Positions 14,421-64,000 of a stretch of 64,000 nucleotides of DNA are shown here, one piece after another; position 1 is the stretch's first letter; each line of letters starts with the position of its first letter. Source of the stretch: Thuidium tamariscinum (Eukaryota; Streptophyta; Bryopsida; Hypnales; Thuidiaceae); contig OZ019759.1 of assembly GCA_947034885.2 (NCBI GenBank), positions 6,388,501-6,452,500 on the forward strand. Reading direction: 5' to 3'. The notes beneath the pieces are model-generated. The model ran no database searches. It saw only the letters and a program-made list of their open reading frames with translations, and was not told the DNA's origin. The translations under genes were made by a program, and so were the position numbers.

Positions 14421-14426
14421 AAACAT

Positions 14427-18181: not shown

Positions 18182-21100
18182 CTACTTTTTACAATTTCGT
18201 GGATAGATTATTTTCTCGGTGCAAAGGGTGTAGCGCGACCCGATGACCTCTGCGGACTCTTTCATGCCCTTGACTACGTTTTTGAAGTAAGGGTTATTGT
18301 GACTGAGTGGCTGTAAGCTAATTCAATTGTCCTCTACGTACTTTATGAGCTCGCCTTCGGGGCAATGTTCATGCAGACACTGCAGCCATGGGAGGAGCTC
18401 TTCCATGAGCATGTCGTCCCTGTGCTTAGCGTAACTCCAAGACTACAGAAAAATGGCGTTGCCATTTGCATTGCAGATATTCTTTATGGGAGTATTATCA
18501 ATGAGAAGGATTTTGTGCATGTAGAACGGTCTGTTTCCATCATTGATGGGGAAGAGGTTGTCCTCTAAGACTTTCATGAAGAGTTTTTTCCCCCTATGGT
18601 GAAAGAATTTGCCAGGAGCCGTTTCTATCTTGGTGCACTACTCCTGGCCTAGGATATCATACGGGGCCTTGCAGCCATGGAATAGGTGCCCAGCGATGGG
18701 TTCCGCATTTTTCTTCAATATGGTTGTCTACACAACGATCTTATCCGCAATCTCCCACAACTAGCGCAAGAACTCTTCGGCATTTTGTCGGGCGAATACA
18801 AACTTGGACCCGATGCTGGTCAGGTTTCTATGGCACAGAACATTGTCTTCGAGATTGTAGGACTCAATTTTGTCCCTGTAGCATTTCTGCATGCTTTGGC
18901 AAAGCACTCGGTTCAAATCCAAGACAATGTTCAGCCATTTCCTCCACGGTGGATGCACTAAAAGTGGCACGTTCCTCGGCACGACCTCTCTCCGCTTCTC
19001 CGTCTCTACTTAACGAAAGCAAAGCAACAATGAGATGGAGTTACCTGTTGAAATGCGGAATTGGGAGAGCTAGGAAGTGGAGACTTGCATTGGAATCCAC
19101 TTATCGATTGGTGTCCCCCATTAGAAAAAACTTTCATTGGGATCGGGCGGTGCATGCTAATATTTTTTGGAAGCTGGGCATCAAGAAAATGTACAATTAG
19201 ACTAGTCCACACTTGAATTTTTAAGAAAATTTGCATACTTTATTTACATATGTTATAAAAGTACATACTACAAAATTTTCTTTTCATTGAGTTGACAAAA
19301 CTGTACACTTAGTTGCAACTAAGCTACACTATACTACAGAGACTTTGGCCACAGACGGGTTCTCCGTCAACGCCACGGATTCAAGATGACGCGACACCAC
19401 CTTGTCATGAATCACGAAGAGAAGTGAGAGTCCAGCATAGTTACAATTTTCCATTTCCCTTTGATTAGACAGAAGGACCTCAAGTTCTTAAGACTCAATC
19501 AAACTTGTAAGGATTTGAACTGAGTACCTGAGTAGCATTGTCGGCCACTTCATCTCCAATACCCACAACCTCTTCATACTTATAATCTACAAGATCTTCT
19601 TGTCTGTGGGATTTTGTCTCGGGCTGCACCGGATCTTGTTCCGACATCACACATGGTGGCACTTCCAAGGTGTCAACGTTATTGTCAACTTGAGGGTAAG
19701 GCAATTGGCTCACCAACACCTACACCTGTTGCGGGACGAGGATGCCAGATGGAACCACGAGCACACCTTGGCTGCCAAAAAAGGGCTGAGCAAACGATGG
19801 CCGTTGGAAAAACATTTTTTGGGACTCCAGAAATTCTGTGATTTGGGAGAGCTGTGCCTCCATCCTCTCCATCTTCTGCTTTGATGTAGCACTCTTGGCC
19901 TTTGCTTCCTCTAGGGCTTTCTTTATTTGTGCCCTCTCCGCCATCCTCACCTTTCACCTTGCCTTGATTTATTCTTGCTCCTTCTAGTATCCCTTCTCGA
20001 TTTTGATGACTTTGCCATCTCAAGCTTGGACAACTGTCCCATCTAGTGCAACAAGGGGCTTCATCTCCTTCACCTTAAGAGGCCCATTGTAGTCTTTGTC
20101 GTCGTCGTCGAACTTGTGGGGCCTGTTCAGCTCTTCCTCATTGGAGGAATCACTCCTAAGCTCATGGATCACGAGCAGGGGTCTCACCACTTCTTCTGTA
20201 GTCTCCTCCCCCACGTTCAGAATGGGGTCCTCCATTTGAACCTTGTTTTCTTTGCCAGATTCTTCTAACTCCAACCTTTGCCTCTTGGTATCACCTACAT
20301 TGTCCACCTCCATTGATAGTATTGCCTCTGTCTCCAAAGGATGCATCTCCACGTTGTCGTGGAGAACACCTTCCGAGACTCTCCTTCGACGCTAATAGTC
20401 GTTGTCCAACTTGTTGTCCAAATTCACTAGACAAAACAGGGGCAAGACGGCCTGAGACTCCTACGACTCATTCATAGGCTCCGAATCATGCTGAGATCCC
20501 ATTGGGTCGCCTTGTGTGTCCATGGGGTCGCCTTAGGTACCCTCAGTCCCAACTGCTACATCACTTGTGAAAGTCGGAGAAGACATCTACGAATGCACTT
20601 AGAACGTATTTGTTCCATATCCATTGATGCCCTCTACCCCTGCATCATTGCTGACTTGTGGGCCAATGGACTGCCGCCTACACTGCCTTTATTCCGGCAC
20701 GTCAACTAGAAGGACAAAGTTCACGACTGGAGATGAAGGGGAGTTAATTTCCGCTGCATCTTTGGAGACAGGGCAAATATATGTCACAGAATAAGGCGAG
20801 TTCGAGAACAAGTAATCATTCTTGTCCATTTTCCTCGCCAAATAAGAGATCTTGAGGAGAGACTTTGCGTCTTCATGATCACTAAATCCGTAAAAATACG
20901 CCCCGAACATCTGCAGGAATTCGGGTGAGGAATAAATTATACATATAGAAACAATCCCTGATATCCTTGATTCAACAATATGAAAAAATCAAGTGAAACT
21001 GCAAAACTCATATTACAAGAAGAAGACACATATTCCTAAGTTATCGTCGACTTGATGATAAGTGCTACAGAAGTAAGAAACAAACCTTTGATGCTAACAT

Positions 21101-24038
21101 GAATTTAGGGCCTATATAGAGGTCGAGGACATTTTCGTCAGATACTGCAAAATTTTGGAGGATCTGTAGGTAGAACTCCATTCTTAGTTTTGTTGGTTGT
21201 ATCCTCCACTTAGCCTCCGTATTCTTTGAGGCATCGATATAATACGTGCATGAAGCTGGTGTGTCATATTCATCCTTCATGTTCCCTCGGCCCTTTGCCT
21301 CAAACTCGCTCCCTCTCTTGAAGAGGAAGAAAAGTGGTACGTCGGGAGCTATCATACGACTAGTGTTGTTCCCCATCATCTCTCCCTTATTTGGACGTAA
21401 AGGGCCTTCATGTAATCGTATTCTTTAAGTTTGTATGTTACAAACTTTAACGCCATTTTCACATCATCTCTCCCCCGCAAAATAAAGAGCCACATGTTGG
21501 GCTCTGTCATTTTTGGGTCAAGTTTTTCTTGAAGAAAACTCAAGAAAGGCTCCAACGATGCCACCTTCTCCAATGGGTCCATACTTGGGATCTCCCTCGT
21601 GTCCAGCACAGCAAGATTTACATTTTGGGGAAGGTACCAGTATTGTGAGCTCTTCACTAGGGCCTTCATTGTGACATCAATGCCGCGCGTTTGAACTCCA
21701 CCCAATGGATCCAGTAATTAGTACTTAAGTTTCATGAAGCGGCAAAACATGTAGAAGACCTCAAGATACAACTTCTCGAGGTCCTTGGCCCGCTTCAACC
21801 ATGCTTCATTCTTCAAATGAAGAGAAAAATACCCCGCCTTCGGATACGACAACAAAAGTCCCACATCCTGGAAGAAAAGCGATGTCTAGTCTTCCAAGCC
21901 TTCCACATTCTATAGGCAACCTCTCCTTCGACTTCAAAAAACTTCAGATCTGGATTTATGGCCATTAAGTCTTGAAGGATGACTTTCTTCCGCTTTCGTC
22001 GCTCTACCCATTTTCCATGAGCTAGACTATAAGGCACCATGATTTTGTTCTTAGGTACCGTGACTTTTGGATAAACAACTTTTTGTCTTGGTGTTTCAAC
22101 CAACAAATGCTGTGCAAGGACTTTGTAGTCCAAGTCTGTGAATCGTCTACATTCCACAATGCTTAAAGAACTCTCTATTGAGGGAGGAGTTCTTTGCTTT
22201 GTATCCCTTTGTATCCTTGTAATGCTTTAAGGACATGGGATCAATCAGCTCACCATCCAAGTGCTTCATGAGGAAGCACTTCCAAAATTCCCACATATCA
22301 TCTGGCAGAGTTATAATCTGAATTTCATTTTTCAGATCTGTGGGCCTTTTAATTGAGGCATCATCCCTCATAGGATTGATGTTTTGGAATCACTGGACAA
22401 CAGCATTCGTAAATTTCTGTAAAGATTGTAAAAGGTCAGGTGAGTTAATCAGACATAGTTGAGGATATTCATAATATTGGGCAACGATATTCTCTTTACT
22501 CCAAAGAAGAGAGAGCACAAAAAAACAAGGTAACGTTAGCAAATTCTACTTCCAAAAGAAAAGAGTAGATATTGTTGACCTGACAATAAACCTCACACAA
22601 CAACACCTACCGTAAAATTTGTACAGTCGAAAATGGCACCGTTCTGTCGCGTAGACCCCTCTGTTTATATGTCCGAGGGGCGCTTGTAAGCAATCCAAAT
22701 ATTGCGGCAGTTGATTATCTAGTTCCCCCAAGTTGGCTACACAAGATTCAGATGGTTTGTATAATTGTAGAACCGTGAAATGTTTCTCACATGACCGGCA
22801 TCCAAGCTCCATACAATAAACGCATCCCAAGCTTGCAGCTCAGTTCTACGCTTCTCTCCGCGAGGGAGTACATCTTGAAGTTGCTTGGAGGTAGTAGTAT
22901 TGTGCTATCCATTAATAATCATAAAATTTCCTCGTTTGATTTCGTCCCATTGCTCAGGCTTCTTCTTAAAGAGATGACCGTTTTCATCCACAGAAGTGAG
23001 GCAAACCTTCTGTCGTTGCTTAATGTCGCCAAGCTGTATAAGTTGATTCCTTGCAGCTTTGACAATGTCTTTTTGCAATGTACAAATGATATACTGATCA
23101 TCAGCAATGATACATTGTGAAATTGGTATAGAAATTGTCTCCATTTCGAGCAAAAAACAATCTTTGTGCTTTGCCCAAAAGTCACGCCGAATTAAGGCAA
23201 ACTTTTTGTGATCTTGCAACAAAGTTTCCTCTTTCTCTGCAGAAGCAAAGACATTTGTCAGTCCTGAGGCTAATCCAAACGCAACCGTTGAGGCCAAAGC
23301 CTGCGCAGTAGACTTTTGCCTCTTCTAGCTCGATTCCCCCGGTTCGGATGTTGTTGTGGCTTGCTTTTGGGGTTGAGACCTAGGTTGCCAATGAGTTGGT
23401 TGACTTCTCCCCAAGGAAGCAGATGCAAGTGCTCGAGCTTGGGGAACTTCGAGACCCTTAGACCCACTAGTGGTGATTCCTCCAACAGTAGGCTTTGTCT
23501 CTTTATTTTTGTAGGCGTACCTATCCAAGGACTACCAAATCAGATGGAGCCTCTATGCAATGGACCTCACAAACCCGTCTTTCCATGGCACGTATCCCAT
23601 TCTTAAAAAATCTTCATTTAGAGACTCCATGGGGGACTTATCCATTGCATCCATTAAAGTCGGAAGGTCGAACTTCGCGCGCTAGGCATGCACGTTTATA
23701 ACGAGTGAATGGCAGTGGCATCTTTACTTGTCGGTATTGTCGATGTCTCAGAGAACGATGACAACGTAACTATGTTGGCAATCTTCTACCACTGACACCT
23801 TCTCATGTATATTCCAAGGCAGGTAATTTTCGGTACCGCAAAGACAGTAACGGAGGTACACATAATCCTTCCACCTGCTCACACCAAATGTCCAGGTAGC
23901 TACATGGTCTTTGAACTCCCAGAGCTGCATGTAGCTTTCTTCTATTTCAGAAATGAAAGGCCCATCGTGCATGGGATTTATAAATGGTTGAAGGTGAGTG
24001 GAGGTCTTTGAGTAATCGTAGTTGTCTTCAATCCCCAT
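18182..24038 (-). pseudogene. E0 large gene: unknown N-domain, ParB-like, methyltransferase-like, acidic/coiled-coil linker, FCP1/NIF-like phosphatase
   Basis: Parallel copy of the E1 large gene (63,029-50,246 without insert B); the two confirm each other. In order: YDYSKTSTHLQPFINP (about 24,020) and FDLPTLMDAMD (unknown domain); QCIIADDQYIICTLQKDI; WDEIKRGNFMIING-stop-H, where E1 reads NGQHS, a possible ParB/DGQHR-like box; NEIQIITLPDDMWEFWK and KRKKVILQDLM; MTEPNMWLFILRG and ENVLDLYIGPKFMLASK, a possible methyltransferase motif I; acidic linker about 20,350-20,030; coiled coil about 19,950-19,800. Then come WLNIVLDLNRVLC, IVV-stop-TT, and a segment matching E1's ILIDDSPEK: the HAD motifs of FCP1/NIF phosphatases. 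GT-AG-like introns separate the blocks. Several TAG, TAA and TGA codons and at least one frameshift make it dead. Domain calls other than FCP1 are tentative. Confidence 0.7.
21041..21061. promoter_or_regulatory. 21-bp palindrome inside an E0 large-gene intron
   Basis: Sequence matches the two inverted half-sites TTATCNTCGA and TCGANGATAA with one mismatch. It sits about 25 bases past a 5' splice site. The same intron of E1 has a decayed copy at about 53,323. A more decayed copy lies at 22,568-22,588, also just past a donor site. Confidence 0.6.
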
Positions 24039-24303
24039 CGTAACGAGTTGCAAAAATATAGACAAACAAGTGTTAGTCATTGTTTTGTCGACTCGATTAT
24101 ACAAATTTACTACGTGTTCTAATGTTACTTGTTTAACAGTGTATTCTTCAAAATCATTAATACTGACGATTTATTTCTCTATGAAATGATAGTTTGTAGA
24201 CTTCATATACCAAATATGGTCTCATCACCTTTGAATTTAATATTTCTAGACTTTTGTATTAGGTCTTGTGTTTCAGAGTTTGAGTTTCTTAACGTCGAAA
24301 TGG

Positions 24304-24705
24304 TTATCTTCGGATCAAAGATAACGAAAGTATTTTAATTTCAGAGTACTACTATTAATCATCTCAAGATGACTCGGCGATGATTGTCAAGGACTGGAGG
24401 GTTAATATCATTATCATCAACTCGATGATAACTTGTTGGTGAGTGTGGATGAGTACTTGGTTAAAGTCGATACCATCGATAGCATTTTGATTTGGAGGCT
24501 AATCTGGATAAGTATTGGTTAAGGACCACATTTATCAACCATTGGATAAGTGTACGCTACATAAGCAGAGGTTACTGCTAGACTTCTACTATCATCAATC
24601 CGAAGATAACTCTATGGAATATGAGAACGAATATCGAGTGATGAAAATTATGATGGACTGAATGGTATGTAGAGAATTCAATGACTACTTGGTGGTGTGA
24701 GCCCT
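24304..24705. promoter_or_regulatory. E0 palindrome cluster upstream of the large gene, left part
   Basis: Copies of the 21-bp palindrome at 24,304-24,324, 24,411-24,431 and 24,589-24,609, 0.3-0.6 kb upstream of the minus-strand large gene. The cluster is split by the LTR-type insertion at 24,706 and continues at 30,378. Position suggests promoter or transposase/ParB-like binding sites. Both roles are inferred. Confidence 0.6.
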
Positions 24706-26539
24706 CAAGATGGCACTTGGAACTCCACATCCATTTTTCGCGAATGATTTGCGAAATTTAGTTTAAAATACAAGAAAAATACATAAAAAGAGTGTTAGGA
24801 GAGTTTTGGTAGTAGTCTCTACCAAAATGGTGAAGAACCATCTTAGAAGGTGGAAAATTCTTAATTCTAAGAATTTCCATCATTCTAAGCCTTAAGAGTG
24901 AGTTTGAAAGCACATTTAGTAATTCCGAGAGGTATGAAAGAATGAGAGTTAATCAGTCCTAATGTCTGTCTGTGCAAAATCAACCTTTTAAGAATGCAAG
25001 TGGCATATTGACTAAGCAAATAGAGTCTAATACAAGTCTAAAGGGTTTATCAAGGCCTAAATTCGATTTTAATGTAAATTGGGTTTAGAAGTAGACTTTT
25101 ATAAATAACTTTGAGAATAGAGATATCAAGATATAGAAAATGGATAAATTGGCAATTGAAGACTACATAAAGGTGTTCCAAGGGTAGGAGCATGCCATGA
25201 GCGGACAAGAATCAAGCAATTGTCCAAGATTCTCAGGTATCGGGAATTAAATTGTCCAATTGAGCAAAGTAATTCCAAATTACTAAAAATAGACAAGTGC
25301 AAGATAGTGTGGAGCTTACACTTAGAATCTAGGAGTACCCTAGATGTTACCCAATTTATTTCATATTTTTTCGAAATTCCACGTTGACTCCATGGGAAGT
25401 CAACCACACATAAACATATTCATAAATTCCTAGAAATTACGTATGTTGCAGTAAAATCTCACTAAAAATTAAGATAGGTTTTTGTATGCTTAATAAGTGC
25501 CCAGTCAAGTTTAAAGAGATTCCGACATTCCCAACTACCAGAACCGGCATCGACATCAGATTACAACATAATTTATAATTTGGCGGCAGGTTGACCGGCG
25601 TATCAGGAGCGAATGATGTCCAATTGACGCAAATGGGGAGACATTCCTTGCTCTCATAGACCATTCCTAACGCCCCTAGCTTGACAGATTCATCAAAATG
25701 CGCAAATCCTAAAAGTTAAATTTTTAACTTTTAATTGGAGTTACTGTAATTCCAAATTGGGTGCACAAACGCCCTAGGAATGAGGGCTAAGGGGTCCGTT
25801 GTGCTAATTGGGGTCTTCTGAAGATAATGGCGTAGATGGATTTCTATTTTGGATTGTTCCCTAAAAGATAGAGAGGGTCAGCTCTTAGTTTGACTTTTTA
25901 ATCATTAATTGTGGTTAATTAAAAGTGATGTTGGAAATATCTCTTGAAAAATCAAAGATTGGATTTAGTCAAGATCTCTTTTTTGCATAAAAATCCATCT
26001 TTGGGCTAAAGAAAGACAATTTTCAAAATAACTTTTGGTTAATTTGCAAAATATCTACGTAGATTAGGGTTAATTTCAAAATATCTTACGTTAAGATCTT
26101 AGATTAAGATCTTGGATGTGATTTGGCCAAGATTTTATTAGCTAAATGGGGGTGTTTCTAGAAATTTCCACCATTAAACAAGTATTATTTTGAAATTATA
26201 TTAGGGTTTTTTAAGGGGAGAAATAACAAAGTATTTTCACTAGCAACTTACCAAGGAGGGCTCGGCCATGGGTATATAAGGGTCCCCCCTCAAGGTTTCC
26301 AGTACCCTTTTCTTTTGTGCACCGACACTTTATTCTTCTACTCTTATTTTGTGTTACCGACGTGTTGGAGCACCACTTTGACTAAAGTTCTTGGCCAAGT
26401 TTTGTTTGAGTATTCTATTGTTGAATTCTAAAAGGCTTAGGGCCCCTTCAAATGATCCTTATTTTCTACCTTTGTGCTAGAGGCTAAGCCTGAACTTTTC
26501 ATTGGCTACCATTTTGTGGAAATTTTAAGCATTGAGCAT

Positions 26540-26690
26540 CAAAGTTCGGTTTAAACACTGCCATGTGAACCTCCTTTGGTTGCAAAATCTTGGGATACTA
26601 GAAAATTTTGAGAATTTAAAGTGAAAGTTCGGTTAAATACTGTCATGTGTACCTCCTTTTGCGAATACAATCCTTGAAATACTATTTGAC
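26540..26690. repeat. Short tandem duplication inside the LTR-type element
   Basis: The segment beginning aaagttcggtttaaacactg at about 26,542 is repeated about 86 bases later as gaaagttcggttaaatactg. Both copies continue into catgtg-acctccttt and end near a nnnaatcttgggatact / aatccttgaaatact pair. It lies downstream of the TATA box. No function can be assigned. Confidence 0.6.
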
Positions 26691-27763
26691 GACTCCTATA
26701 CAGTGAAGCTTTGAACCCTTTACCTCCACAACTGATAAAGCTTGGAAAACAAGCCAAATCATTATCAATGATTTGAGTAGGGGAGATAATAGCTAAATTT
26801 CCTTAAAGTGCTTCATGATTCTAAGACATTTGAGAATCTAAGGAAATAGTAACACTTTAAGGCTCCTAAACCAAACACTCTCATCACCATTTCTTTGTTT
26901 TGTTTTAACTCTCCATCCGTTTTCATTATGCTCATTAGATAGGAATTTGATAACTTTCTTAACCCATAGAGGTATTAGACTAATAGTGCCTTTACCACTA
27001 CCATTTAGTTCAATTTTAGTTTAGTAGTCAGTCTATAAAGAAAATCCAAAAAGATCAAAATTAGGACCAAGGCAGGTTGGGCCATAAGGTAGTAAGGCGG
27101 GCTGGGCCGTAAGGCAGTAAGCCAACAACCACGATACCAATCAAGTAGCCGCGGGTACCAACCTGAGCAACCGCGTGGTCCAATAGAGGAATCCGACAAG
27201 GAAGTCGGGTGCAGGGGGAGTCCAGCAAGGGGAGTCGGGTGCAAGGGGAGTCGAAAGTCCAGAGAGTGATCGATATACCCAAAACTCAAATCACTTTTAA
27301 AACTCCAAAAATTAGATTTGGAATCAAAATCACTATTGGCAATTGTGGCCACACCTTTAATTTGTTTTTTGTTTGATTTTTACACTAAATCCAACACTTG
27401 AAGTCTCAAAAATTCTTCACACATTTTCAACATTCCAACACCGTAGCCATCTCTCTCTCCAAAACATTGCAAAAGACCTCAAAGCAAGAATGAGAGAGAA
27501 GGGAGAGAATTAAAAAGATTAAGGTGACTGAATCCTCACCTGTGAAGCAATTTACATTAAAAAACTAATTTCTAAAGAATAACACTATAGAGTCTGATTC
27601 TTATTCTTGAGGGTTGACCTTTGAGAATAAAAAACCAATTTCTTTAGAATCCTACTATTGAATTTTGTTCTTGTTCTTTGGGAGTGTTCTATATTCTTTG
27701 GTAGTTAGTTATTAATTAGATTCTTAGGGATTTTGGATTTTGTTGGTTTTGTTTTATTAAGCC

Positions 27764-51955: not shown

Positions 51956-52006
51956 TTATCCTCGACTCGAGGATAAAAGAGTGGTTTATCCTCGACTCAA
52001 GGATGA
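51956..52006. promoter_or_regulatory. Two adjacent 21-bp palindromes in the E1 large gene
   Basis: Perfect copy at 51,956-51,976 and a copy with two changes at 51,986-52,006, 30 bases apart. A further half-matching copy lies at 51,788-51,808. They fall between the linker and phosphatase coding blocks. Confidence 0.65.
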
Positions 52007-54719
52007 AGAAGTCCAGCCACGAGGTCCTCGACCTCCGTAGGAACGGGAGGTGCCGGAACTGACGACGCTAGCATTGATGACTACAACATTGACGCAATCC
52101 CCCCTTGGCTTAATTAAGTTTGAAACATCTTTTTTAGCTCCTTGAATTGACTGGAGAGGTTAGAAATCTTTTGTTGGGACTCTTGCTGCACTTTGATAAT
52201 TTGAGCTCGTGCATAGGCCAACTCTTTGTCCTTTTTTGCATTCTCAACCCTCCGAGCGGCACGTCTGTTCAGCTTTTCTTCCTCTTCCTTCTAATGGTCT
52301 TTTTCCACCTTCATCACCTTACCATCAGGAAGGAGAAGCGACTTCAACTCCGTCACCTTCGGCGGACCGTCGTGGTCCTCATCGTTGTGGTCGGACTTGT
52401 GAGGATGATTGATTGGATCATTGTCACTACCAAAGTCGTAGAATACGGGCTTCTTGTCCTTGTCCACAATGTCTGCGACAGGGATGCCTTGGGTAGAGGT
52501 TCCCTTTGCGAGCTCGTCATCACGCCCTACTTCTTGCATGATGACGTCGTCGTCCGCGGAGCCCTCTTTCATAAATGAATCTTCCCGCTCTCCGAAGTCG
52601 AGCGGGTCCTCGACATCCTCCTCTGTTTGCCTCCGCTTGGCTCTCTTCCACTCGATGTCGGGCTCCATTTCATTGTTCGCCTCTAATTCAGTTTTGAATT
52701 CAGCGATGATATTGGACGGTGCTGCCAACGAAACTTGCAAATCAACCAACTCCAAATCTGGTTGATCAACAACTTGCGTAATTGGTTGTGTAGTTTGTGC
52801 AGTCACGTTTGCATTTGCCATCCACAAGTAAATTTGGAACGTATTCGTCCCAAACTCATCCAGGCCTTATACACCTGGATCTGATGTCACGTGAGGCCCG
52901 ACATTCTCCCTCCGTCGAGAGACTGGAATGTTTTCTGTGGTCAACAAGATTATGGGAGGCAAGACAGGCAAGTTCGAACAAACCTCAACGGGGCTCCAAG
53001 TAGCTGGCTTCTCGTAGTTCAAGGAATAAGGGGAATTCGACATTTTGAAATCCCTCCAATCCATCTTCTGAGCAAGGTAAGAAATTGCCAAATATGCCTT
53101 CATGTCACTCCGATCAACAAAGCCAAAATAATATGCTCCAAACATCTGCCACAACATGTGAGGGAACCAATAAGAATATATAATTACTCTCGGAAGTGAC
53201 AAAAGAGCATCAGATATGATCTCCCGTATCACTGAGTCAATGATACTTGATGACTATTTTTACCAAAGGTCATGTAAATAAAATAAAATATGTTTTACAA
53301 CTCAAGGAGGAATTGGGGGAAGGTATCACCGATGCGAGGATAACTACCAGTGCAAAAAAATCTTACCTTTGTTGCCAGCATGAACTTCATGCCTACATAA
53401 ATGCCGAGAATGTTTTCATTCAGCTTTGCAAATGCTTGAAGCATTTGCAAGTAGAACTCCGTGCGCAGTTCCGTGGACTCTATCTTCCACTTCGCCTCTG
53501 TGTTCTTACCCCAATCCCAGTAATACATATTCCCTAGTACAGTGGAGTATTTTTTCTTCACGAAGTCACAACTGGAGGATGCAAAGTTGTTGTTCCTTTT
53601 GAAAAGGAACATGAAAAGAACGTTGCAGCCGGCGTTCGATTGGTAAGGTTGCCCAACAACTCGACTCTGCCCGGATAGTACATGGAGAGAATGTACTCAT
53701 AAGTTACTAGATTTTGTGTTGCAAATGCCTTCGCCGCCTTGAAGTCATTGTTGTTCTTCAAAACGAAGAGCCAAATGTTCGGCTCCGTCATCTTAGGATA
53801 GAGACTAAGATGAAGGAAGTTTAGGAAGGGGTCAATGGGGCGTTCAGTTTCGGTGGCTTCCACTCTCGAAGCCTCTCTAAAGTCCACGGGAGCAAAGTTA
53901 ACTTCCCTACTGTGATACTGGTAGGTGGAACTAGTCACCAGCACCTTCGCATTGATGTGAACCCCTTGCACTTGCACCCCCCCAGCAAGCTCAGGAAGTT
54001 GATACTTCAACTTCATGAACCTTGTAGATATATGATGAACCTTTAAAAATTGCTTCTCAAGGTCTTTTGCACACTTCAGCCAAGCATCATTTCATAAGCA
54101 TTACTTGTCATAATCAGCCTTAGAGTGTGTGAGCAAGAAGTCCCACGAGGTTGAAGTGAATTTGTATCGTGCCTTCCATGACTTCCACACCTGGTCCACA
54201 ACATCACCACTAGTAGTCAAAAACTTTAGGTCTGGCTTCACAACCATCAGATCCTGAAGTATTACTTTCTTCCGCTTCTTCCTCTCCACCTACTCCTTAT
54301 AGGTTGTATTGTCTGGCACAAGGATCTTTGTTGATGCAATAGAGACCTTCAAATACAGGGCCAAACATCCACGCGTTTTGCCAAAATCCACGTCTGTGAA
54401 GTGGCCAAAGTGTTTAAAAAACTCTCGCTTCAAAGACATGTTCTTGATTCTGAATCCCTTCACGTCCCTGTATAGTTTCAAGGCGCAAGGATCAATCAAG
54501 TTGCCATCAGCGTGCTTTGTCAAGAAGTTTTTCCAATGTATCCATAAAGCGTCGAGTAGGGTGATAATTTGGATCTCATTCTTCAAATTTGAGGTGCTAT
54601 TTATCGTCGCACAATCCCGCTAAGGATTGACATTCTGAAAGCGCCCAATGACTGCGTCTATAAAGCTCTGCATTACCCACCACAGACAAGTAGGTCGATG
54701 TAAGATAATCCATTCTTAG

Positions 54720-54846
54720 TTATCGTCGACCCGACGATATAGGCAATGACTTAATCAAGATATGAAACTCAAAAGTAAACATTCTACACAATGTGATGAC
54801 AACAAACCTAACATGTTTCAACACCTTATCATCAAGTCGAGGATAA
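54720..54846. promoter_or_regulatory. Two 21-bp palindromes in an E1 large-gene intron
   Basis: Copies at 54,720-54,740 and 54,826-54,846 lie inside the intron between the exon ending at 54,868 and the next exon near 54,660. The second lies about 20 bases past the 5' splice site, as in other introns of this gene. Confidence 0.65.
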
Positions 54847-54915
54847 GGGATCCAAAGCAATTTTTACCTTATACTTCTCTAGATCCCACACTGCCTTATT
54901 CTTCCTGGTCACAGA

Positions 54916-54941
54916 AGGCCTTATTCATTATATTGAGACAA
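54916..54941 (+). repeat. Left terminal inverted repeat of B
   Basis: Begins AGGCCTTATTC and ends TTGAGACAA. Three mismatches to the right repeat. AGGCCT is itself a palindrome, as at the start of E1. Confidence 0.9.
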
Positions 54942-55349
54942 AATGACCATTATGAGACTTTTGAAATAGGGCGCAAAAGCTCCATTGATGGAAGAGTTGT
55001 TGAATTCTATGATAATAATCAAGCATTCAAGATTAATTGGAGTGTTGAAGGATTTAGGGTGAACAAGTGAAAGTTTACATGAAGAAGGCACAACAGAACA
55101 GCCAATAACTTAGTCGGAAATAAGGGCCATCTTTTTACAATATAGAGAATGAGATGAAGCCTCAATACACAAGGTGCGGTCAGCATTTATTCTATCTTCA
55201 AAAATGAACAAATGAAGAGCCTCACTGTACATGTGACTCTTTACTACTTTGAGTGTATGAGTTCTATATATGGCCTTTCTATTTATAGTAATGAGAACTC
55301 AGAAGCTTCGAGGGCTTCGAAAAATGTACCACGTCCCTTTCCTCATTTG

Positions 55350-55694
55350 CTATTTTCCATGACTTGAGCTTTTCGCGAGTGCTCTCAAGATATCCTCGTG
55401 TCGAGAAGGATACGGAGGCCCACTCTTACCGTCCTGGTTATCCCAGGACTTCACGTTGCTCGAAATATTATGCTTCCGCTTTTGTGTGCTCTTGCTTGTG
55501 GCATGATCCGAAGCAGAAAGTGATTTTGATCCTCCAATGGGTGGTTTCAATTTTGATGTAATTACATTGTCTTTGTACATGTCAAGGTGTCCAACAGATT
55601 TTGAGCTCATCGAGCGCTGATGATCTCTGAGAACCCTCTGACGAAAGAGGCTGTCCGACGAGGGCAGCCGGAAGAAAGTAAAATGTCCTTGCAA
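55350..55694 (-). pseudogene. B tail-gene fragment (C-terminal part)
   Basis: Encodes SSDSLFRQRVLRDHQRS, a basic Ser-rich middle, then TQKRKHNIS and SRHEDILRALAKSSSHGK, ending about 400 bases inside the left terminal repeat. It corresponds to the last third of the E1 tail gene and, unlike E1, has Gln rather than TAG in the TQKRK site. The 5' part is lost at a deletion junction near 55,687, where sequence passes directly into a unit of the 172-bp array. The first Met is therefore not the natural start. Confidence 0.7.
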
Positions 55695-55990
55695 ATCGAC
55701 TGTGGAAAATGAATTTGGAGGTGTATTCCTACTTCTACATTTTTCTTGGGGTATTATTCATATAAATTTTGAAACATTTGTAGAATGAAATTTATAAAAA
55801 CAATGGTAGGACTACGTCTTCTTTAAAATGCAATGCGGTTTTTGCAAGGAACTTAACTGATTTAGCCTATATCTTTTAGATAGTATAATTGTGAAGGTTT
55901 ATGTAACTTATGAAATATTTTGTTTTAATTTGGCTATTGTTCATATTCATTTAGAAACATGAATTCAATGGGATTTGACAATGTTTAGAG
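55687..55990. repeat. B remnant of the 172-bp array (one to two units)
   Basis: Words gcaaatcgac, gaatttggaggtgtattc, tgaaacatttgtagaa and gaattcaatgggattt follow the unit order of the E0 array. Copies of the landmark lie near 55,768 and 55,955. Confidence 0.8.
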
Positions 55991-57542
55991 TGACTCAGTA
56001 TTTTTTGGAATTCAATGGGATTTCCTGAACAAACTAATTATACTTGAGATTGATTATTGGAGAGTAAAGTGGGTGAATATTCGATCTACTTAGTACCTTT
56101 TTTTTATTTAATACTTATTGGCAGCTAAACTCTGAACATTTGTCCATGAAGGGTTTTTTTTAAAAGAAAAAACATTTAGCAATACTTCATTTCATACATG
56201 ATTTGACAAACAATTTAGCATAGTAGTCTAATTTTGAAGTTCTGAGAATTTGGGTGGTTCAAAGATTACATTTATTGAGCTTTATAGAAAAAATTTAGGA
56301 TTCAAGGCTTATAAGTAAATTTTTCTGGCTTAGGGTTTGGATGTTTGTGTTTTATGGTTTATGGCCATTCGTTACTCCTTATTACTTCAGAAGGTAGGAT
56401 TAATGTTGCTGATCTAAAGTTTAGCATTCTTAGACTTCAAAGTTTAGATTTAGGGTTTAGGATGCACAATGATATGTCATGGTTTGGGGTTTAGGATTTA
56501 GGGTTTAGTAGGATCGGAGGGACTAAACTTGGAAGCATGAACTCTTTAAAAATACTCATTTTGAATTTCATCTTTGTTCAGCTTCTAATTTTTGTTAGAC
56601 ATCCAAACCTTAAATCCATTAAAACCCATAACTATTCTAAATGTCTTAATCCGTAGGAAGATAGACCCTCGCCCGCAAAAAGCCTAAACCCGGGCGGTGT
56701 AGATTTTGGATTTCTAAACATGGACCCAGAATATTTACGCAATTGGAATGGGGGGAAAATACTGCCGGAGAACCAACGGTGAAAAGTGCTACGAATCTCC
56801 TAAATGCGGGGCAAAAGTGCTGGAATGGCAGAGGTAGTACTGTACCTGTCCATGTAGGGAAGCATCTCCTTTAGACCGATAAGCGCAATTAGTAAAGTTA
56901 CCCCGAAAAGCTGCGGAAGGCGCCCTAAATCTGCTCGCATGACACATGTGCACTGCAGTGTTGGGACGTGGAGGAATTTTTGAACTTCGGATTTTCGCGC
57001 TCTAAATTTCCCGCTCTGAATTTCCCGCCTACAGTGTATTTTGCTTGGATGCGTCTTCCCTATCGGGCCCGTGGTCATTGTTTTTCTTCTACGTCATTTT
57101 GCAGGGCATCGGTGTCGTCGCTTTGTTCTTTGCGTGGTTTCTCTCTGGAGTGACATATTTGATGCTTCTGTAGCAGTCGTTAAACTTGTAGAGCACGCAG
57201 TGCGCGGTTTCTCACAGCACATTGTTTCCTTTCGAATCTGCAGGTAATGAGGGGGCTTAGTTGTGATACAGTGCATAGAGTGTAGGGTTTGCAATGCTTC
57301 GTCGGCGACAGAGATTGTACTAGGCAGTATGCATGGCAGTCCTATGCGTAGTCTGTGACATTCTTTGTATTACATATCATCTCTTTGTTTGGGTCGTTAG
57401 GTTCTCATTTGTTCACAGAATGATTGAAGCATGCGATGTCATGTGCACTTTTTTGTGTAGTAGTCGTTTATGTAAAGTGGAACCTGCATTCGGGACGTTT
57501 TGGAATTCCGGAAAACATGCCAGAAAAGACGGAGATAAAAGC
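55991..57542. other. B leader region, homologous to E0 41,200-42,740
   Basis: Non-coding, with TTTAGGG-like motifs near 56,490-56,510. Colinear with E0. Probably promoter and 5' untranslated DNA of the DUF7869 gene. Confidence 0.7.
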
Positions 57543-58208
57543 TTATTGTTGACTCGAAGATAATTCAAAATTGTAATGTTATAGAGTACTTGCAGGCTTT
57601 AGCTTCTGTCCTGCGTACCTGAACATACACAAGTACACTGATTTGAAACAAATATTTATTATCGTCGAGTCGACGATAGTACGTAATGAACGCATCAATT
57701 TTTTTGTTCATGCGAAGGTCCTAATGGATTTAATTGAACTGTGCACATAGTTTCTTAAGTTTCTGCTCATAGAGAATAATATTTCGTCTTGGATGATATC
57801 CTCGATTCGACGATATCAGGGACAGGTCATTGGTGGAGGACAATGTTTGCATTGATTACCTCATAATCGGGTCTTTGCCTGCTATGTAGTTTCTGGCTCG
57901 CAGCATATTAAATGTTCCATTTCATCGAAGATATGAAGAAATGTTTTAACTTTTAAATATTTGTCGACACATCATTTTCCTGGTTATCCTCGAGTCGACA
58001 ATAAGTACGGACTGCCACTACATATAAGTCATGAAGTGGTTCCCCTCGTGACCTACTTTGCTCATATAGTTTCTTAAGACTAACGTTTTCATAATCCGTA
58101 CAATGTTTCTTTATTGACTATCATCAGACATGATAGTATGTTACAATCATAGAATCTTCCACCGCAAAGAGTGTTTACTTAAAATCTTTATCATCGAGTC
58201 GATGATAT
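57543..58208. promoter_or_regulatory. B palindrome cluster before the DUF7869 gene (five copies)
   Basis: Copies at 57,543, 57,659, 57,796, 57,984 and 58,188. These are the best preserved set: 57,659 and 58,188 keep both half-sites with full TCGA cores. The last copy ends 31 bases before the ATG and lies just upstream of a 3' splice site (gatgtctgcag, ending 58,238), so part of the cluster is probably in a 5' untranslated intron. Confidence 0.8.
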
Positions 58209-58239
58209 GTTTTTTCATTTAGAACTTGATGTCTGCAGA

Positions 58240-60663
58240 ATGGATTACCATGGCCCTAAGGATTTTGCGAATCCAGTGGCAACACTTCCACTTGATGTTC
58301 GCTTATGCGAGGGACTTCCTCGTGCGAAATGGGTCATGCAGCCGGTCACTCTTCAAGATGAAGACGGAGTGGACGTTGCGAGGGGAGTCATTCAGAACAT
58401 TGACCCTGACATGATCTTTGATCAGAATGGAAAATCTCTAGGCGATGACCGTGTTGTTGTACACATTGCGGAGTCTTTGAATGAAGAGCTCTTTTCTTCG
58501 TCGAATATGTGGTCTATACGTTCTTGGCACATTAGGAATGTGTTTATGTACGACGGTGCTTCTTTGTATGACCATGATGAAACACAAAAATACAACACGG
58601 CCATGAATCCCAAAAGAGCTCGAAAGGAGTTACGATCATACGAAACAACTCGTGTGAGAATTGATCCTGAGGTCCCTCCCAAGAAACAACTTCTCCTGAC
58701 TATGGAATCGATCACAGCAGTTTCCACAAAAACTTGTTGTAGAAAGATTTGTGTGCAGCATTTTCCTCTTGCACAAGTTCAAGCAATACGGACCGAGCTG
58801 TATGGTGGTGGTGACTTCAAAGCTCGCAACAAGACTTTGTTGGAGGTGCATAAGCAAATCCATAAAGATGTTAATGGTAAAGAGTGGATCACCTTGAAAG
58901 AGAGGGAAGTCTGTCCTACAGCGTGGTGGATCATTCATGGAATAGCAAAGTGTACATTCTATAGGTACAAAGACAAAGCCAAAACTGGGAAAGAAGCTGA
59001 TGTGCATGGAAATCTGGGATCCAAAAAGCCACGCATGGAAACTATTCAAGCAACTGCCACACTTCGAAAGTTAATTGAGGTGGATGCTGATAAGATGCCA
59101 CACAAGACGAGGACACTGGAGTCCAGGGAGAAGGTTACTGCCATGGTTCTCCCATCCTCGTTTCGATGGAGTGATCAATTGAAAACAATCAATGAATCCA
59201 ATGCAAGCTTCAATTTACCACCCATTTCTTCTAGTGGTTTGAGCAATATTCGTCGTAATTCATTTCTTGAGTTCGCTGCAAAGGCGCGTGGAGATACATT
59301 TGCTAGATGTGGATTGTGTGACAAGTACAATCAATTGAGAAGCGCTTGTGTAGGTGAGGAGGCAAAATCTAAGTGGACAGAATTGAAGAAAACCCATAAT
59401 CAGGGGCAATTGGCTCATAGGCACCTGTACTACGGACATCGAGACGAATCAGTAAAATCGCCTGATAAAGCGTTGTGCATTATTCATGACAAGATGGATC
59501 ATTCAAAGACTGCTTCTCCACACTTCTCTCACAAAACCAAGGTCACTGAATCATTCATGAAAATGCCTGTAGCGGTAACAGGTATGATTGCTCATGGGCA
59601 TGGTGATGTGCGATATGCACACTATGGTTTAGACATTTATCCAACTGATTCAAATCATACCATTGGATCTATTGCAAGGTTGTTGCGTGATTTGGAAGGA
59701 GCGCCAAAGAATTCATCACGCACGTTATTTTCAGTAGAAGATAACCAATCCACTCTTACAAAGGCAGTTTTAGATGGAGCGGTAATTTGCTTGGACTCGC
59801 TTCTGCCACCTCCGGATGAACCACTTCCACCTAAACCTCTTCCCCCTGTTCTAATGTTACAACTCGACAATTGTTCAGAGGACAACAAGAATCGTTATGT
59901 TTTTGGTTTTTGCTCTATGCTTGTATACAAAGGCATTTTTTGGGAGGTGTACATCAACTTCCTCATTGTGGGGCACACTCATGAAGACATTGATGCTCTT
60001 TTTGGTCGATGGAGCTCGAGATTGAAGACAAATAACTATCCAACAATTCCTAGGCTTATGAAGTCTTTTATGGATACTGAAGAGCACCCTGTGATTCCTC
60101 ATCTCATTGAAGAAGTTCCTGACTTCAAGGCGTTTGTGCATGGATATCTTGGCACAGGTGGGGATTTCTTGGAGGGTCATTCTAGATCCCAACAATTTAA
60201 GTTTTTCAAGGATTCAAATGGATGGCCTTTGATGGAATACAAGAATTTGTGTACAGATGATAAGTGGTTGCCCGAAGGTGGCAAGGGAATTAGATTGTGG
60301 TCCGAGACTGCACACGGCCTTCCCAAAGTGCCAACGGGTAATCCTCGACCTCTAGTTCCTGAACCGATGAAAGCCCTTCAAGACATAAAGAAGGGTTTGA
60401 ACGGTTTTGTTGCGTACTGGAAGAAGATGGCAGATGACGATTATACAGGGGAATTCAGGCAAAAAAATGGCACCTTGGAAGATTATTGGAAAGGCGTTCG
60501 AACGGCTCTAGATGCACCTCTTCAGCTTCGTGAGTCATTACTCGATGGATTTTGGCCAACTTCTAGAATTACCCCTGATGAGACTGATCGCATGCAAAGA
60601 GACGACACATTGCATGAGGAAGACGCAGAAGATGTACCATTCGTTGGACGTAGACGTGATTGA
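58240..60663 (+). CDS. DUF7869-type transposase, nearly intact (807 codons to the first stop)
   Basis: ATG 58,240 is preferred over 58,207 because a strong 3' splice site (gtctgcag) ends at 58,238 and similarity to E0 is coding from here. N-terminal part has TKTCCRKICVQHF (residues about 164-176) and EVCPTAWWIIHGIAKCTFY, typical of this family. FARCGLCDKYNQLRSAC (C357 and on) looks like a zinc knuckle. Candidate RNase H-fold catalytic residues: D417 in IIHDKMDHSKTASPHF, D543 in LQLDNCSEDNKNRY, and GHTHEDID (578-585). The nuclear product would cut and join the AGGCCTTATT ends. The frame ends at TGA 60,661 inside RRRD-stop-PRPSFRV and continues for 143 codons, so a CGA-to-TGA change is likely. 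It is the only long intact frame in the window and may be the most recently active copy. Confidence 0.88.
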   Translation: MDYHGPKDFANPVATLPLDVRLCEGLPRAKWVMQPVTLQDEDGVDVARGVIQNIDPDMIFDQNGKSLGDDRVVVHIAESLNEELFSSSNMWSIRSWHIRNVFMYDGASLYDHDETQKYNTAMNPKRARKELRSYETTRVRIDPEVPPKKQLLLTMESITAVSTKTCCRKICVQHFPLAQVQAIRTELYGGGDFKARNKTLLEVHKQIHKDVNGKEWITLKEREVCPTAWWIIHGIAKCTFYRYKDKAKTGKEADVHGNLGSKKPRMETIQATATLRKLIEVDADKMPHKTRTLESREKVTAMVLPSSFRWSDQLKTINESNASFNLPPISSSGLSNIRRNSFLEFAAKARGDTFARCGLCDKYNQLRSACVGEEAKSKWTELKKTHNQGQLAHRHLYYGHRDESVKSPDKALCIIHDKMDHSKTASPHFSHKTKVTESFMKMPVAVTGMIAHGHGDVRYAHYGLDIYPTDSNHTIGSIARLLRDLEGAPKNSSRTLFSVEDNQSTLTKAVLDGAVICLDSLLPPPDEPLPPKPLPPVLMLQLDNCSEDNKNRYVFGFCSMLVYKGIFWEVYINFLIVGHTHEDIDALFGRWSSRLKTNNYPTIPRLMKSFMDTEEHPVIPHLIEEVPDFKAFVHGYLGTGGDFLEGHSRSQQFKFFKDSNGWPLMEYKNLCTDDKWLPEGGKGIRLWSETAHGLPKVPTGNPRPLVPEPMKALQDIKKGLNGFVAYWKKMADDDYTGEFRQKNGTLEDYWKGVRTALDAPLQLRESLLDGFWPTSRITPDETDRMQRDDTLHEEDAEDVPFVGRRRD

Positions 60664-61095
60664 CCGCGTCCTTCATTCCGTGTTAACGTTGATACGCACG
60701 AAGGTTCTTTTATTGCAGTGCGCCCTGCTGATGGTGATCTTAAACCATTTTGGCTAGCTCGGGCTATTACGGCTCCAAGTCCAGATCCAGGACATATGCA
60801 TATGATCAGAATTCAGTATTGGACACCTGCTTCAAATCGACACATAAATATAGATACGTATGAGGGATGGGACACGAAACAAGGGAATGTGTGGCGTGAA
60901 GACACTGTGATCAAGCCAACATGGTCAAGCACGGGTTGTATCTTAACGGCTTGGAAGCCTCGTTTCCGAGAGAACACTAAGAAACCAAAAGTGTCGATTC
61001 CAAATTTACAAATTGGCATCATTAAGGCATCAGTAACGGCCTTAAGAATCGAAGAACGCAACGATGAGGCAAATGAGTCTATGGAGGAAGAATGA
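60664..61095 (+). pseudogene. C-terminal extension of the B transposase behind one TGA
   Basis: In frame with the upstream gene. Encodes EGSFIAVRPADGDLKPFWLA, then IRIQYWTPASNRHIN, YEGWDTKQGNVWRED and WSSTGCILTAWKPRF, and an acidic end (NDEANESMEEE). The FWLA...IQYW...GWD pattern resembles small beta-barrel (BAH/Tudor-like) chromatin-reader modules, an inference from pattern only. The full protein would have about 951 residues. Natural stop TGA at 61,093. Confidence 0.75.
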
Positions 61096-61643
61096 GTATT
61101 TTGTAGTTGTAATAGTTAGTTCTATAGGTTTTTGTTGTTGAATTTGAAGGAATAGATTACTTTTTGTATTGTAGTTACAAATTATGAAAATGATTTTTGA
61201 GTACATATAATGTACTGCATATAGAAATGCCTTTCATTACAAATATTGTGACTGAAGAAAAGAGGTTGAATTCTATTAATAGAAATTATGTTTTGTCATT
61301 TGCAAGAGAAAGTTGTGCAAATTTTTTTTTGGCATACAATAGTAGTTCATAAATTTGTGAAGTTGAATACCATATCGTACTCTTCAAATGTATGTTGTAT
61401 GATGTAGAACTTCTCATTTAAAAAAACATGTAAGATTAAAATAATTTGAGTTATTCCGTTTAATAATAAAATAGTTCAAAAACTAAATTTGAATGTTTAT
61501 GAAGAATTATGCCACTTACAATAATAAAAAAGCAATTATAAAATAATGTTTGGGACATTTTTGAGTCTCAATTTAATGAAATCTTTTTTTGCCTTAAAAT
61601 AGAAATGAGACCACAACTTGTCTCATTTTAACGAATAAGGCCT
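61096..61643. other. B 3' non-coding region and right terminal inverted repeat
   Basis: AT-rich, probably holding the polyadenylation region. Near the end, gagtctcaattta and gagaccacaacttgtctc repeat the GAGAC word of the terminal repeat (61,618-61,643), so subterminal binding motifs are likely. Confidence 0.7.
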
Positions 61644-63029
61644 TACATCCTTAGTACAAGTGTTTGTGCGATGCTTGTATGTTACCCAAATGCTTCTACA
61701 ACTAATTATTTGGTTCCCCCAAGTCGGTTGGGCATGGTCCAAGTGGTTAATGCAGTTGTATAACTTGGATATACTTCTCAATTTACTCTCATCAAAAGTC
61801 CAAACAATGTAGACGTCCCATGTCTTCATTTCAATTTTTTGGGTCTCTCTGCAGCCATCTTTTTGAAGCTCCTGAGAAGCGGTTATGCTATGTTGACCAT
61901 TGATTATCATGAACTGGCCATTATTAATTTCGTCCCACGACTTAGGCTTTCTTTGTAGCAGTTTTTTCTTGACATCGACAAGTGTAAGGCACACCTTCTG
62001 TTGCTGCTTAACATCTATTAGCTGAACAAGCTCTTTCTTCACAGCATCCACTATATCTCTCTGCAATGTGCAAATGACATAGTGTGGGCGTGCTATAATA
62101 CATTGCTTGATGTTTATCTTCATTACAGCTTCGTCAAACAAGAAACATGTCTTGTGGTCGGCCCAGATTTGTTTCTGAATTTTCTGGAACTTCTCATGTT
62201 CTGGTACTTCATCTTTGCTTTTTGCCGTAGGAACAGAAACTGTAGTGCGAGCGGATCTTGAACTATGGCCCCTTGCAGGTCTACTAGTTCCAAATTTTTT
62301 CCTTTTCCGGCTTGATTCCCCGCCTTCAAATGACGGCCGCTCTTGTCTTTTGGGCTCACACTTTGTTGATCCAAGTCTTGTGGCCCTCCCTCCTGAACCT
62401 ACATCAAGAGATGATCGAGGTTTTTGACTCTCACTTTGCTGTCGGGGTCTTGATACTTGGTCTGTACTGTGACCTATTGCAGGTTCTTTTTCAACATTCT
62501 CCAATGCATAGCGATCTAGCGTTTGGAAAATTAAATGCAGTCTTGCGGCAATGGATTTTGCAGTTCCATTTTCTCATGGGACGTAACCTGATTTCTCAAA
62601 TTGCTCATTCAAGGACTCCATCTGAGAGCCCTCTAGAAACGTCATGAGATTGGGAAGATCAAAATTCCCATGCGAACAATTTACGTCTAAAACAATGGAA
62701 TGGCAGTGATCTTAAGGCTTCCCAGTTTCGTCAACAACACGAAGTACAATGACAACATAGTCCACTTAGTATTCTTCAATGAGAATCACCTTTTCTTTCA
62801 GGTTCCATGGCATGTACGTATTGGTACCCTACACACCATAGCGCAGGTACACATAGTTCCTGAATCGATTCACCTCAAAACTCGAAGTATCAATGTGATC
62901 ATTGAATTGCCAGAGCATCCCATATATGTCTGCCATTTCTGCGATAAAGGGTTCATCGTTCAAAGGGTTAATAAATGGCTGCAGATGGTATGAAGTAATG
63001 GAGTAGTCGTATCCATCTGTGATCTCCAT
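61644..63029 (-). pseudogene. E1 large gene, 5' part (unknown N-domain, linker, ParB-like segment)
   Basis: Starts at MEITDGYDYS (63,029), which follows a possible acceptor (cctacag). Then HLQPFINPLNDEPFIAEM, a TAG at 62,829, PNLMTFLEGSQMESLNEQF, a Ser/Arg-rich linker (RKRKKFGTSRPARG), and QCIIARPHYVICTLQRDI. WDEINNGQFMIINGQHSITA resembles the xGQHRxxA-type box of ParB/DGQHR proteins, but His-Ser replaces the usual His-Arg. It ends at YKHRTNTCTKD, where B enters; the last seven codons before the next stop come from the B terminal repeat. E0 carries the same segment at 24,038-22,605 with TAG at three positions where E1 has CAA. Part of the stop pattern (TAA before DHCHS) is shared with E0. Confidence 0.68.
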
Positions 63030-63200
63030 CTGTAGGCCTCTGCACAAATCATATTTAGAATGTCAGAAAATTGACAATCATCAATATGGAGATGATATCT
63101 TGCGTTGTATAAGGAACAAATGATTTATTCTTCTTTTTAAGTGTACCCTATTTTAGAGCTTAATTCAAGCATCACCATAAATTTGGTGAAGGTAAAAATG

Positions 63201-64000
63201 TTAACATTGACTCAAGGATAACGAAATGGTTTTGTTAAACCATTTGCTACATGTACAGGCTTTGTATCTTCTACCTTAATTGATTTGGTTTTTTTCTTTG
63301 ATATCTATTCTCAAAGATATTTATCAACGCGGTCATGTTTTCACCTTATCATTTACTTCACTATAAGTCTAAGGTAATCTATTCATATTTTTGAAGATAA
63401 TCTATTCATAATTTTTTTCACTGTGGGTCTAAGATAATCAATTCATATTGTACCCTTAGCATTGGGTCAGTGATAACTACTAACTCAAAATTGTTGATGT
63501 TATCACCGGGTCAACAATGAAAGTAGGACCTTATGTGAACCGAGAACATTGGAGGCAGCCTAAATTGATGTTATTTAGTTAGTTCTAGACGTTTAGGATT
63601 TTATCCTCTAGTCGAGAATAACATGAAGACCTTTCAAACCTTTGCACTAATGTAATTTAGTTCATTGATAACCTTTGCGACATTAGCATCGGATTGACGT
63701 CAATCTTATGACCTTCTATAAATCCTACGCTGAAGATATTTTATTTCATTAACATGTCTGTAAAGTTATCGTTGGGTCGAGGATAACTTAATTAGTCTAG
63801 TCTAAATGTTTAGTTATCATTGGCTTGAGGATAACCTCTTCAATACTTGAAAAGGTATAACAAATCTTATATTCTTATATGCTAAGCTCTGTCAAGTTAT
63901 TATTGGGCTGATGAAAATTTTCTAAATAGTTTGTAGTGAACAAATACAAATTATATTCTGGAGTTGGCACTACCATTTGCAGTTATCATCGAGTCGAGGA
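63201..64000. promoter_or_regulatory. E1 palindrome cluster upstream of the large gene (seven or more copies, cut by the window edge)
   Basis: Copies and decayed copies of the 21-bp palindrome at 63,201, 63,500, 63,601, 63,766, 63,814, 63,896 and 63,983 (runs off the edge). It mirrors the E0 cluster at 24,304-24,609 plus 30,378-30,553, at the same place relative to the large gene. Confidence 0.72.

Follow-up and report, generated by a model that had tools for sequence, protein, structure and literature searches.

A 21-bp palindrome dispersed through a moss DUF7869 transposon family, a putative recognition site for a protein encoded by the element

The stretch of DNA analysed here (the window) comprises 64,000 nucleotides (nt) of the moss Thuidium tamariscinum (positions 6,388,501 to 6,452,500 of contig OZ019759.1, assembly GCA_947034885.2). 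The contig is 17.5 Mb long and the assembly amounts to 363 Mb in 19 contigs. The window holds nested copies of one DNA transposon family, because an inner element splits an exon of a large gene and another element starts inside the second copy of a transposase gene (Table 1). A palindrome of 21 base pairs (bp) which belongs to this family is the subject of this report.

The terminal inverted repeats (TIRs) of the inner element match AAGGCCTTATTCGTTAAAATGAGACAA with 3 mismatches at 54,915 (plus strand) and none at 61,618–61,644 (minus strand). The element is flanked by a 3-bp target duplication, ACA, and this is the only insertion for which both ends are documented. Once the insert is removed, together with the 3-bp duplication and an additional base at the left end, the large-gene exon is again in frame; it continues ...NTCTKDVTRKNKAVWDLEKYKV and matches the homologues in the alignment. 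The same repeat occurs at 44,966 (plus strand, 3 mismatches) and, without mismatch, at 2,759 (plus strand) of L025, one of 17 stretches of 10 kb of the same genome sampled at round coordinates chosen by the analyst; all other places in the window have at least 9 mismatches. The right TIR of the outer element was not found with up to 8 mismatches in 64,001–84,000 (best 9), nor did the TIR scan find the left end of the older element, A. A sequence at L021:185, which differs from a 19-base part of the TIR at 2 positions, lies in a sampled stretch with neither large gene nor transposase and is perhaps the end of a non-autonomous copy.

The first part of the transposase-like gene of the inner element matches PF25273 (DUF7869) with an E value of 7.4e-46, and this domain is present in all 19 members of homologue set A1 (best E 4e-47). 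The gene has 117 homologues, the named ones coming from the mosses Ceratodon and Physcomitrium, and both of its parts match locus L001, described below. Aspartates kept in the motifs IIHDKMDH, LQLDN and GHTHEDID suggest, in our reading, a DDE/D-type transposase; the predicted structural model is poor (predicted local distance difference test score of 56). The second copy is degenerate, 43,118–44,965 being 88.7% identical to 57,818–59,665. A tandem array of roughly 170-bp units occupies 39,234–41,144, and a single related unit lies at 55,670–55,863, upstream of the other transposase copy; the array is therefore probably an amplification by one copy.

The large gene lies on the minus strand in two copies, A (24.2 to about 17.5 kb) and B (63 to 45.5 kb). 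The core of the exon interrupted in copy B is predicted to resemble bacterial ParB N-domains (ParB/Srx N-domain fold, by structure prediction). A search aimed at full-length large proteins gave only four exon-sized matches. The contigs of the transposase homologues and those of the homologues of the ParB-like exon have four lengths in common (460,842, 559,682, 50,733 and 46,150), which suggests that the two genes may be linked elsewhere too. The C-terminal part of the large gene resembles a NIF (FCP1-like) phosphatase: L025:4279-5151 matches PF03031 (E 2e-13), the domain is seen on the homologues L025 and L014, and the window stretches 50,282–51,124 and 18,185–19,239 are assigned to it by similarity to L025.

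The consensus of the palindrome is TTATCNTCGANTCGANGATAA, in which 18 fixed bases were scored for mismatches. The window contains 1, 10, 20, 26, 30 and 40 places at up to 0, 1, 2, 3, 4 and 5 mismatches, respectively. In 200 dinucleotide shuffles the corresponding means are 0, 0, 0, 0.025, 0.275 and 3.0 (maxima 0, 0, 0, 1, 2 and 9), and 300 palindromes with permuted half-sites give means of 0, 0, 0.01, 0.07, 0.52 and 4.3 (maxima 0, 0, 1, 3, 7 and 27). The places with 5 mismatches are weak evidence by themselves, because permuted palindromes reach up to 27 places at that cut-off. The spacing is fixed: among the TTATC/GATAA pairs of the window (gaps of 0 to 19 counted), 9 of 12 have a gap of exactly 11. 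A CpG is present in each half-site, as a preliminary description of this DNA had said. That description had claimed about 30 copies, and 25 of its 27 coordinates hold a site at the named base with up to 5 mismatches. Of the other two, 63,983 is only the left half of a site, truncated by the end of the window, and at 22,568 the expected intron position holds a decayed copy that has about 6 mismatches (counted by eye). The sites at 46,008, 51,788 and 53,323 (3 mismatches each) come in addition to its list.

All 26 sites with up to 3 mismatches lie to the right of 21 kb (none in the left 20 kb, 26 in the right 44 kb), and 24 of them fall in segments with DUF7869 or large-gene sequence. At this cut-off there is no site in 24,701–30,300, in 30,601–41,199 or in 1–17,399, the last agreeing with the earlier statement that the left 17 kb is free of them. 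The clusters which had been described before the transposase and the large gene are indeed there, at 42.7–43.5 and 57.5–58.2 kb (both transposase copies) and at 24.3–24.6 and 63.2–64.0 kb (the large-gene starts). At 836–1,513 the window also contains part of a CACTA-type element, a tnp2 (PF02992) fragment that has relatives in L024 and L026.

Table 1. Palindromes, genes and elements in the 64-kb window (positions are those of the window).
Feature	Position	Strand	Basis
Five palindromes upstream of transposase	57,543–58,208 (57,543; 57,659; 57,796; 57,984; 58,188)		Motif scan
Five corresponding palindromes upstream of second transposase copy	42,743–43,508 (42,743; 42,859; 42,971; 43,284; 43,488)		Motif scan, copy comparison
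Three palindromes upstream of large gene A	24,304–24,609 (24,304; 24,411; 24,589)		Motif scan
Palindromes upstream of large gene B	63,201–64,000 (63,201, 63,601, 63,766, 63,814, up to 3 mismatches; 63,500, 5 mismatches; cut site 63,983)
Palindrome 21 nt past donor, intron after ParB-like exon, large gene B	54,826–54,846
Second palindrome, same large-gene B intron as 54,826	54,720–54,740
Palindrome 23 nt past donor of later large-gene B intron	53,323–53,343
Palindrome 24 nt past donor in copy A matching the 53,323 donor of B	21,041–21,061
Three palindromes in large gene B region	51,788–52,006 (51,788; 51,956, perfect; 51,986)
Palindrome within open reading frame (ORF) of last large-gene exon	46,008–46,028
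Palindrome pair outside DUF7869/large-gene segments	30,378–30,553 (30,378; 30,533)
Inner DUF7869 element, 6.73 kb	54,915–61,644		27-bp TIRs at 54,915–54,941 (+) and 61,618–61,644 (−)
DUF7869 transposase-like gene, inner element	58,183–61,095	+	ORF 58,183–60,660, one in-frame stop, then 60,664–61,095
Degenerate second copy of transposase, interrupted at 44,965 where another element inserted	43,498–44,965	+	Copy comparison, TIR from 44,966
Outer element with left TIR at 44,966 and minus-strand large gene	44,966–64,000		TIR (3 mismatches), large-gene exons
Large-gene exon with predicted ParB-like fold, interrupted by inner element	61,645–62,573	−	88 homologues, structure prediction
Older decayed large-gene copy, element A	17,460–24,170	−	Exon-by-exon similarity to large gene B
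NIF-phosphatase-like part of large gene	50,282–51,124	−	Similarity to L025:4279-5151

The leaders of the two transposase copies (42.5–43.5 and 57.3–58.2 kb) keep their five sites in register although they are about 20% diverged. The core differs at 9 of 90 positions, against 165 of 767 in the flanks (p=0.008), and 7 of the 9 core changes are CpG transitions. When changes in CpG context are excluded, the contrast becomes sharper, with 2 of 90 in the core and 140 of 767 in the flanks (p=1.5e-5). The half-sites are thus better kept than their surroundings between the two copies, and the pattern fits selection on the core combined with loss of methylated CpG in old copies.

In the DNA sampled the palindrome goes with the element, in line with the preliminary description: 16 of the 17 sampled stretches have no site at up to 4 mismatches, and L025, the sole stretch with sites (9, of which 3 are perfect), is also the sole one with the large gene. 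Three stretches adjoining the window (L016–L018) have no site at up to 4 mismatches either. An equal density in unrelated DNA, which would have spoken against the earlier proposal, is therefore not seen in the sampled DNA of the same genome.

The relatives from outside the genome on which sites could be read (L001, L014, L015 and L039) are contigs of a cyanobacterial bin of 4.8 Mb, isolate AVDCRST_MAG81. They appear to be plant contamination, of a moss-like kind, because they carry introns and moss-like proteins. P0187, a protein assigned to a Nitrosocosmicus bin, appears to be another such contaminant. Among the GTDB contigs the transposase search gave one locus, L001, whose bin yielded three more contigs; searches of viral contigs with the transposase and the ParB-like exon, and an exact pattern scan, gave no confirmed relative, and there was none in 96 related genomes.

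These relatives have their own forms of the palindrome. L001, found by its protein, has a transposase 47% identical to that of the window and a form with TTTAG arms, TTTAGNTCGANTCGANCTAAA, present at 5 sites with up to 3 mismatches on both sides of the gene. When the bin was scanned with the TTTAG form (up to 2 mismatches), 12 places came up, distributed over three contigs (L001, L014 and L015), against 1 for the reversed pattern. L014 and L015 were found by the palindrome and afterwards shown to encode large genes about 30% identical to that of the window; their own form, TTCAGNTCGANTCGANCTGAA, has TTCAG arms and occurs at 16 sites with up to 3 mismatches. L039 was again found by protein (large gene 38% identical over the ParB-like exon) and has the TTATC form at five sites, of which two are perfect, one of them 20 nt past a donor, and three have 1–2 mismatches. 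In a scan for palindromes of any sequence (10+1+10, up to 1 mismatch), the core TCGANTCGA is found in 24 of the 32 palindromes of L001, L014, L015, L039 and L025, in 4 of the 19 of the window, and in none of the 29 from 190 kb of other DNA of the same genome. The TCGANTCGA core and the geometry are therefore constant, and the outer pentamer is variable (TTATC, TTCAG, TTTAG).

This variation bears on two explanations which would need no protein of the element. The clusters upstream of genes, and half-sites TTATC/GATAA which fit a GATA core, could mean that a host GATA-type factor is recruited and that the element borrows host activation. The relatives, however, exchange exactly this pentamer for TTCAG or TTTAG, with TCGANTCGA and the spacing unchanged, and the fixed spacing of the dyad also speaks against a host GATA factor, which we consider very improbable. 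It is harder still to believe that the sites are mere remnants, inherited from a repeat in the ancestral element and kept by descent alone. Copies within one genome do share ancestry and position, but non-CpG changes are about 8-fold fewer in the core than in the flanks, sites are kept in homologues only 38% and about 30% identical, and the new arms retain the dyad symmetry. Half-sites conserved no better than the flanks in other members, which would also have spoken against the earlier proposal, are not what is seen: the other copy in the window keeps them better than its flanks, and they are retained in L039 (TTATC form) and in the read-throughs described below.

A second regularity concerns introns. 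Twelve introns could be read at two positions of the large gene (window copies A and B, two L025 copies, L014, L015 and L039), with donors deduced from protein homology rather than RNA and offsets taken by eye. In 11 of them a site with up to 3 mismatches to the family form starts 20–26 nt after the donor GT, close to the 20–25 bases given earlier, and the twelfth holds the decayed site 22,568. The remaining sites cluster upstream of genes or lie downstream, and a few are in ORFs. Some protein-database homologues of the large protein read into the first intron: 22 of 41 distinct tails fit at least 15 of the 18 fixed bases, 16–31 nt past the inferred donor, and 14 fit at least 16, against means of 0.79 and 0.10 (maxima 7 and 3) for 200 permuted palindromes, all these scores being upper bounds since the most favourable codons were used for query and controls alike. 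Similarly, among 6 transposase homologues whose N-terminal extension is long, 2 could encode the palindrome in the leader, at 18/18 and 17/18, in a comparison made without controls.

The donor offset would fit an RNA hairpin near the 5' splice sites controlling splicing of the large gene, and it is kept in homologues about 30% identical with other arms. Pair 1/21 is moreover complementary in 13 of 16 sites of L014/L015 (expected 8.8, P 0.037) and in 8 of 12 of L025/L039 (expected 5.3, P 0.051). In the window, on the contrary, 9 of 10 arm pairs show no pairing excess over shuffled partners (at pair 6/16, 12 of 26 are complementary where 7.7 are expected, P 0.05), C stands opposite C at two sites in both diverged copies, and there are further sites before genes and in 3' regions. 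We therefore favour a DNA site that a dimer reads over a hairpin, which we hold to be improbable as the general explanation and which retains some room near the donors.

The DUF7869 transposase itself might bind the palindromes, both to achieve synapsis and to repress its own promoter, the large gene merely riding along. The precedent would be the CACTA (En/Spm) elements, two-gene elements with a 3-bp target duplication and a repeated CpG-bearing motif, whose subterminal copies are bound by TNPA; the repeated motif, the target duplication and the two genes are the points of likeness. A transposase is the only protein indispensable to such an element, the clusters lie directly upstream of it in both copies, and the L001 sites flank the gene on both sides. 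The present element nevertheless differs from CACTA: its TIR is AAGGCCTTATTC, which begins AAGGCC, DUF7869 takes the place of tnp2, with no PF02992 in the DUF7869 protein, and the sites are internal rather than subterminal. Indeed, the inner element has 5 sites within 0.7 kb in its middle and none with up to 3 mismatches near either TIR. The density of sites is also about as high on L014, L015 and L039, which carry the large gene, the transposase being found only on the L001 contig. Binding by the transposase therefore seems rather unlikely, although less so than a hairpin.

The reading that we prefer, with a probability of about 0.6, is that the 21-bp palindrome would be recognised by a dimeric, sequence-specific DNA-binding protein which the transposon family itself encodes and which would mark and control the element. 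It starts from direct observations: a fixed dyad geometry, a core kept while the flanks diverge, arms specific to each family, presence with both types of gene and absence from the sampled unrelated DNA. The most likely binder, we infer, is the large protein with its predicted ParB-like N-domain. As a dimer, it would bind all the sites, be they in promoters, leaders or introns, and so mark the DNA of the element as its own and control its expression, most likely by keeping or restoring open chromatin over the element (anti-silencing). Since there is a CpG in each half-site, binding would fail on methylated copies. In new families the protein and the outer arms would change together, TCGANTCGA being retained. 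Among the possible uses of the site, anti-silencing is favoured by analogy with the VANC and VirB precedents discussed below, the main alternative being that the same site serves to repress the promoters of the element. The interpretation proposed in the preliminary description is supported in part, namely for a site which is element-specific, resembles a protein-binding site, bears CpG, is common to both genes and lies near donors.

Several points weigh against this interpretation. The link of the large protein to ParB is at the level of the predicted fold only: no ParB_N was found in Pfam and no ParB match in NCBIfam or among PDB sequences, and hhalign gave 0.3% against an alignment of only 6 ParBs (6 of 20 ParB loci passed the filter for a sequence box). 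Individual exons of L025 and L014 showed no helix-turn-helix in Pfam. The segment corresponding to the arginine-rich nucleotide box of ParB reads NGQHS by eye, so that nucleotide switching may be lost. The location in non-coding DNA is not universal, some sites lying inside ORFs (L025; 46,008 in the window). The read-through fits are upper bounds, as stated, and 19 of the 41 tails stay below 15/18. All the readable outside relatives come from one contaminated bin. The mild excess of symmetric arm changes leaves room for a role at the RNA level, and the tight offset of 20–26 nt from the donor is not predicted by a pure DNA-marking role; a bound protein acting as a roadblock that slows the polymerase at the donor is one idea that would account for it.

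The palindromes inside the ORFs of L025 (1-1257, 5618-6325 and 3202-4209) translate to DYPRLED-like peptides, and in some of these sites the peptide is kept though the DNA palindrome has decayed.

That a transposon may carry an array of its own specific motif along with a co-evolving protein is already known in principle. According to the parts of PMC5735166 considered, a short motif in the introns and in the intergenic and terminal regions of VANDAL elements is bound by VANC, which brings about loss of methylation; motif and protein evolve together. The likeness to these Mutator-like elements of Arabidopsis (PMC5735166 and PMC10398659, both in part) lies in a short motif repeated through the non-coding parts of a plant DNA transposon, in the joint divergence of motif and element family, and in a plausible link to DNA methylation. 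In the passages considered, the VANC21 motif, YAGTATTAY, is a 9-mer and its targets are often tandem repeats, whereas the present site is a dispersed 21-bp dyad. Here the family-specific motif is found in non-coding regions, with some sites in ORFs, and the transposase is of the DUF7869 type, with no Mutator family among its Pfam matches, so that the element does not group with the Mutator type.

The other precedents are the ParB-parS, VirB and KorB systems (PMC10770331, PMC11790492 and PMC12704722, considered in part), with which the family would have in common a predicted ParB-like N-domain and palindromes spread over kilobases. VirB, a relative of ParB, is described in the passages of PMC10770331 as loading at palindromes, sliding and countering silencing; it does so from distant palindromes, and a parallel role is proposed for the protein of the element. 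The differences are that the host of the site is a eukaryotic transposon, that the site has a central base and spans 21 bp rather than 16, and that the arginine box, judged by eye, seems not to be kept. A stronger version of our reading, which we hold to be less probable than not, is that a ParB-type protein and a parS-like array were taken up by a eukaryotic transposon, where the protein would load and spread as VirB does to hold off silencing, the lineages re-keying the arms as private anti-silencing codes.

A 2025 survey of the ParB fold names, in the parts considered, sulfiredoxin as its commonest eukaryotic form, and the words plant, moss and transpos are absent from its main text as available (PMC12704722); the passages of PMC5512222 considered contain nothing on plants. 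A literature search, made mostly without full texts, found no such transposon family, no dyad with interchangeable arms and no ParB-fold protein in a plant transposon. It also returned no naming of DUF7869 and nothing joining moss, DNA transposon, ParB and transposase.

The family offers a matched site and candidate protein defined from sequence alone, together with natural specificity variants, TTATC, TTCAG and TTTAG. If the interpretation is true, self-recognition by a short motif, known from VANDAL, would have evolved again in another type of transposon and another group of plants, perhaps with a ParB-fold protein.

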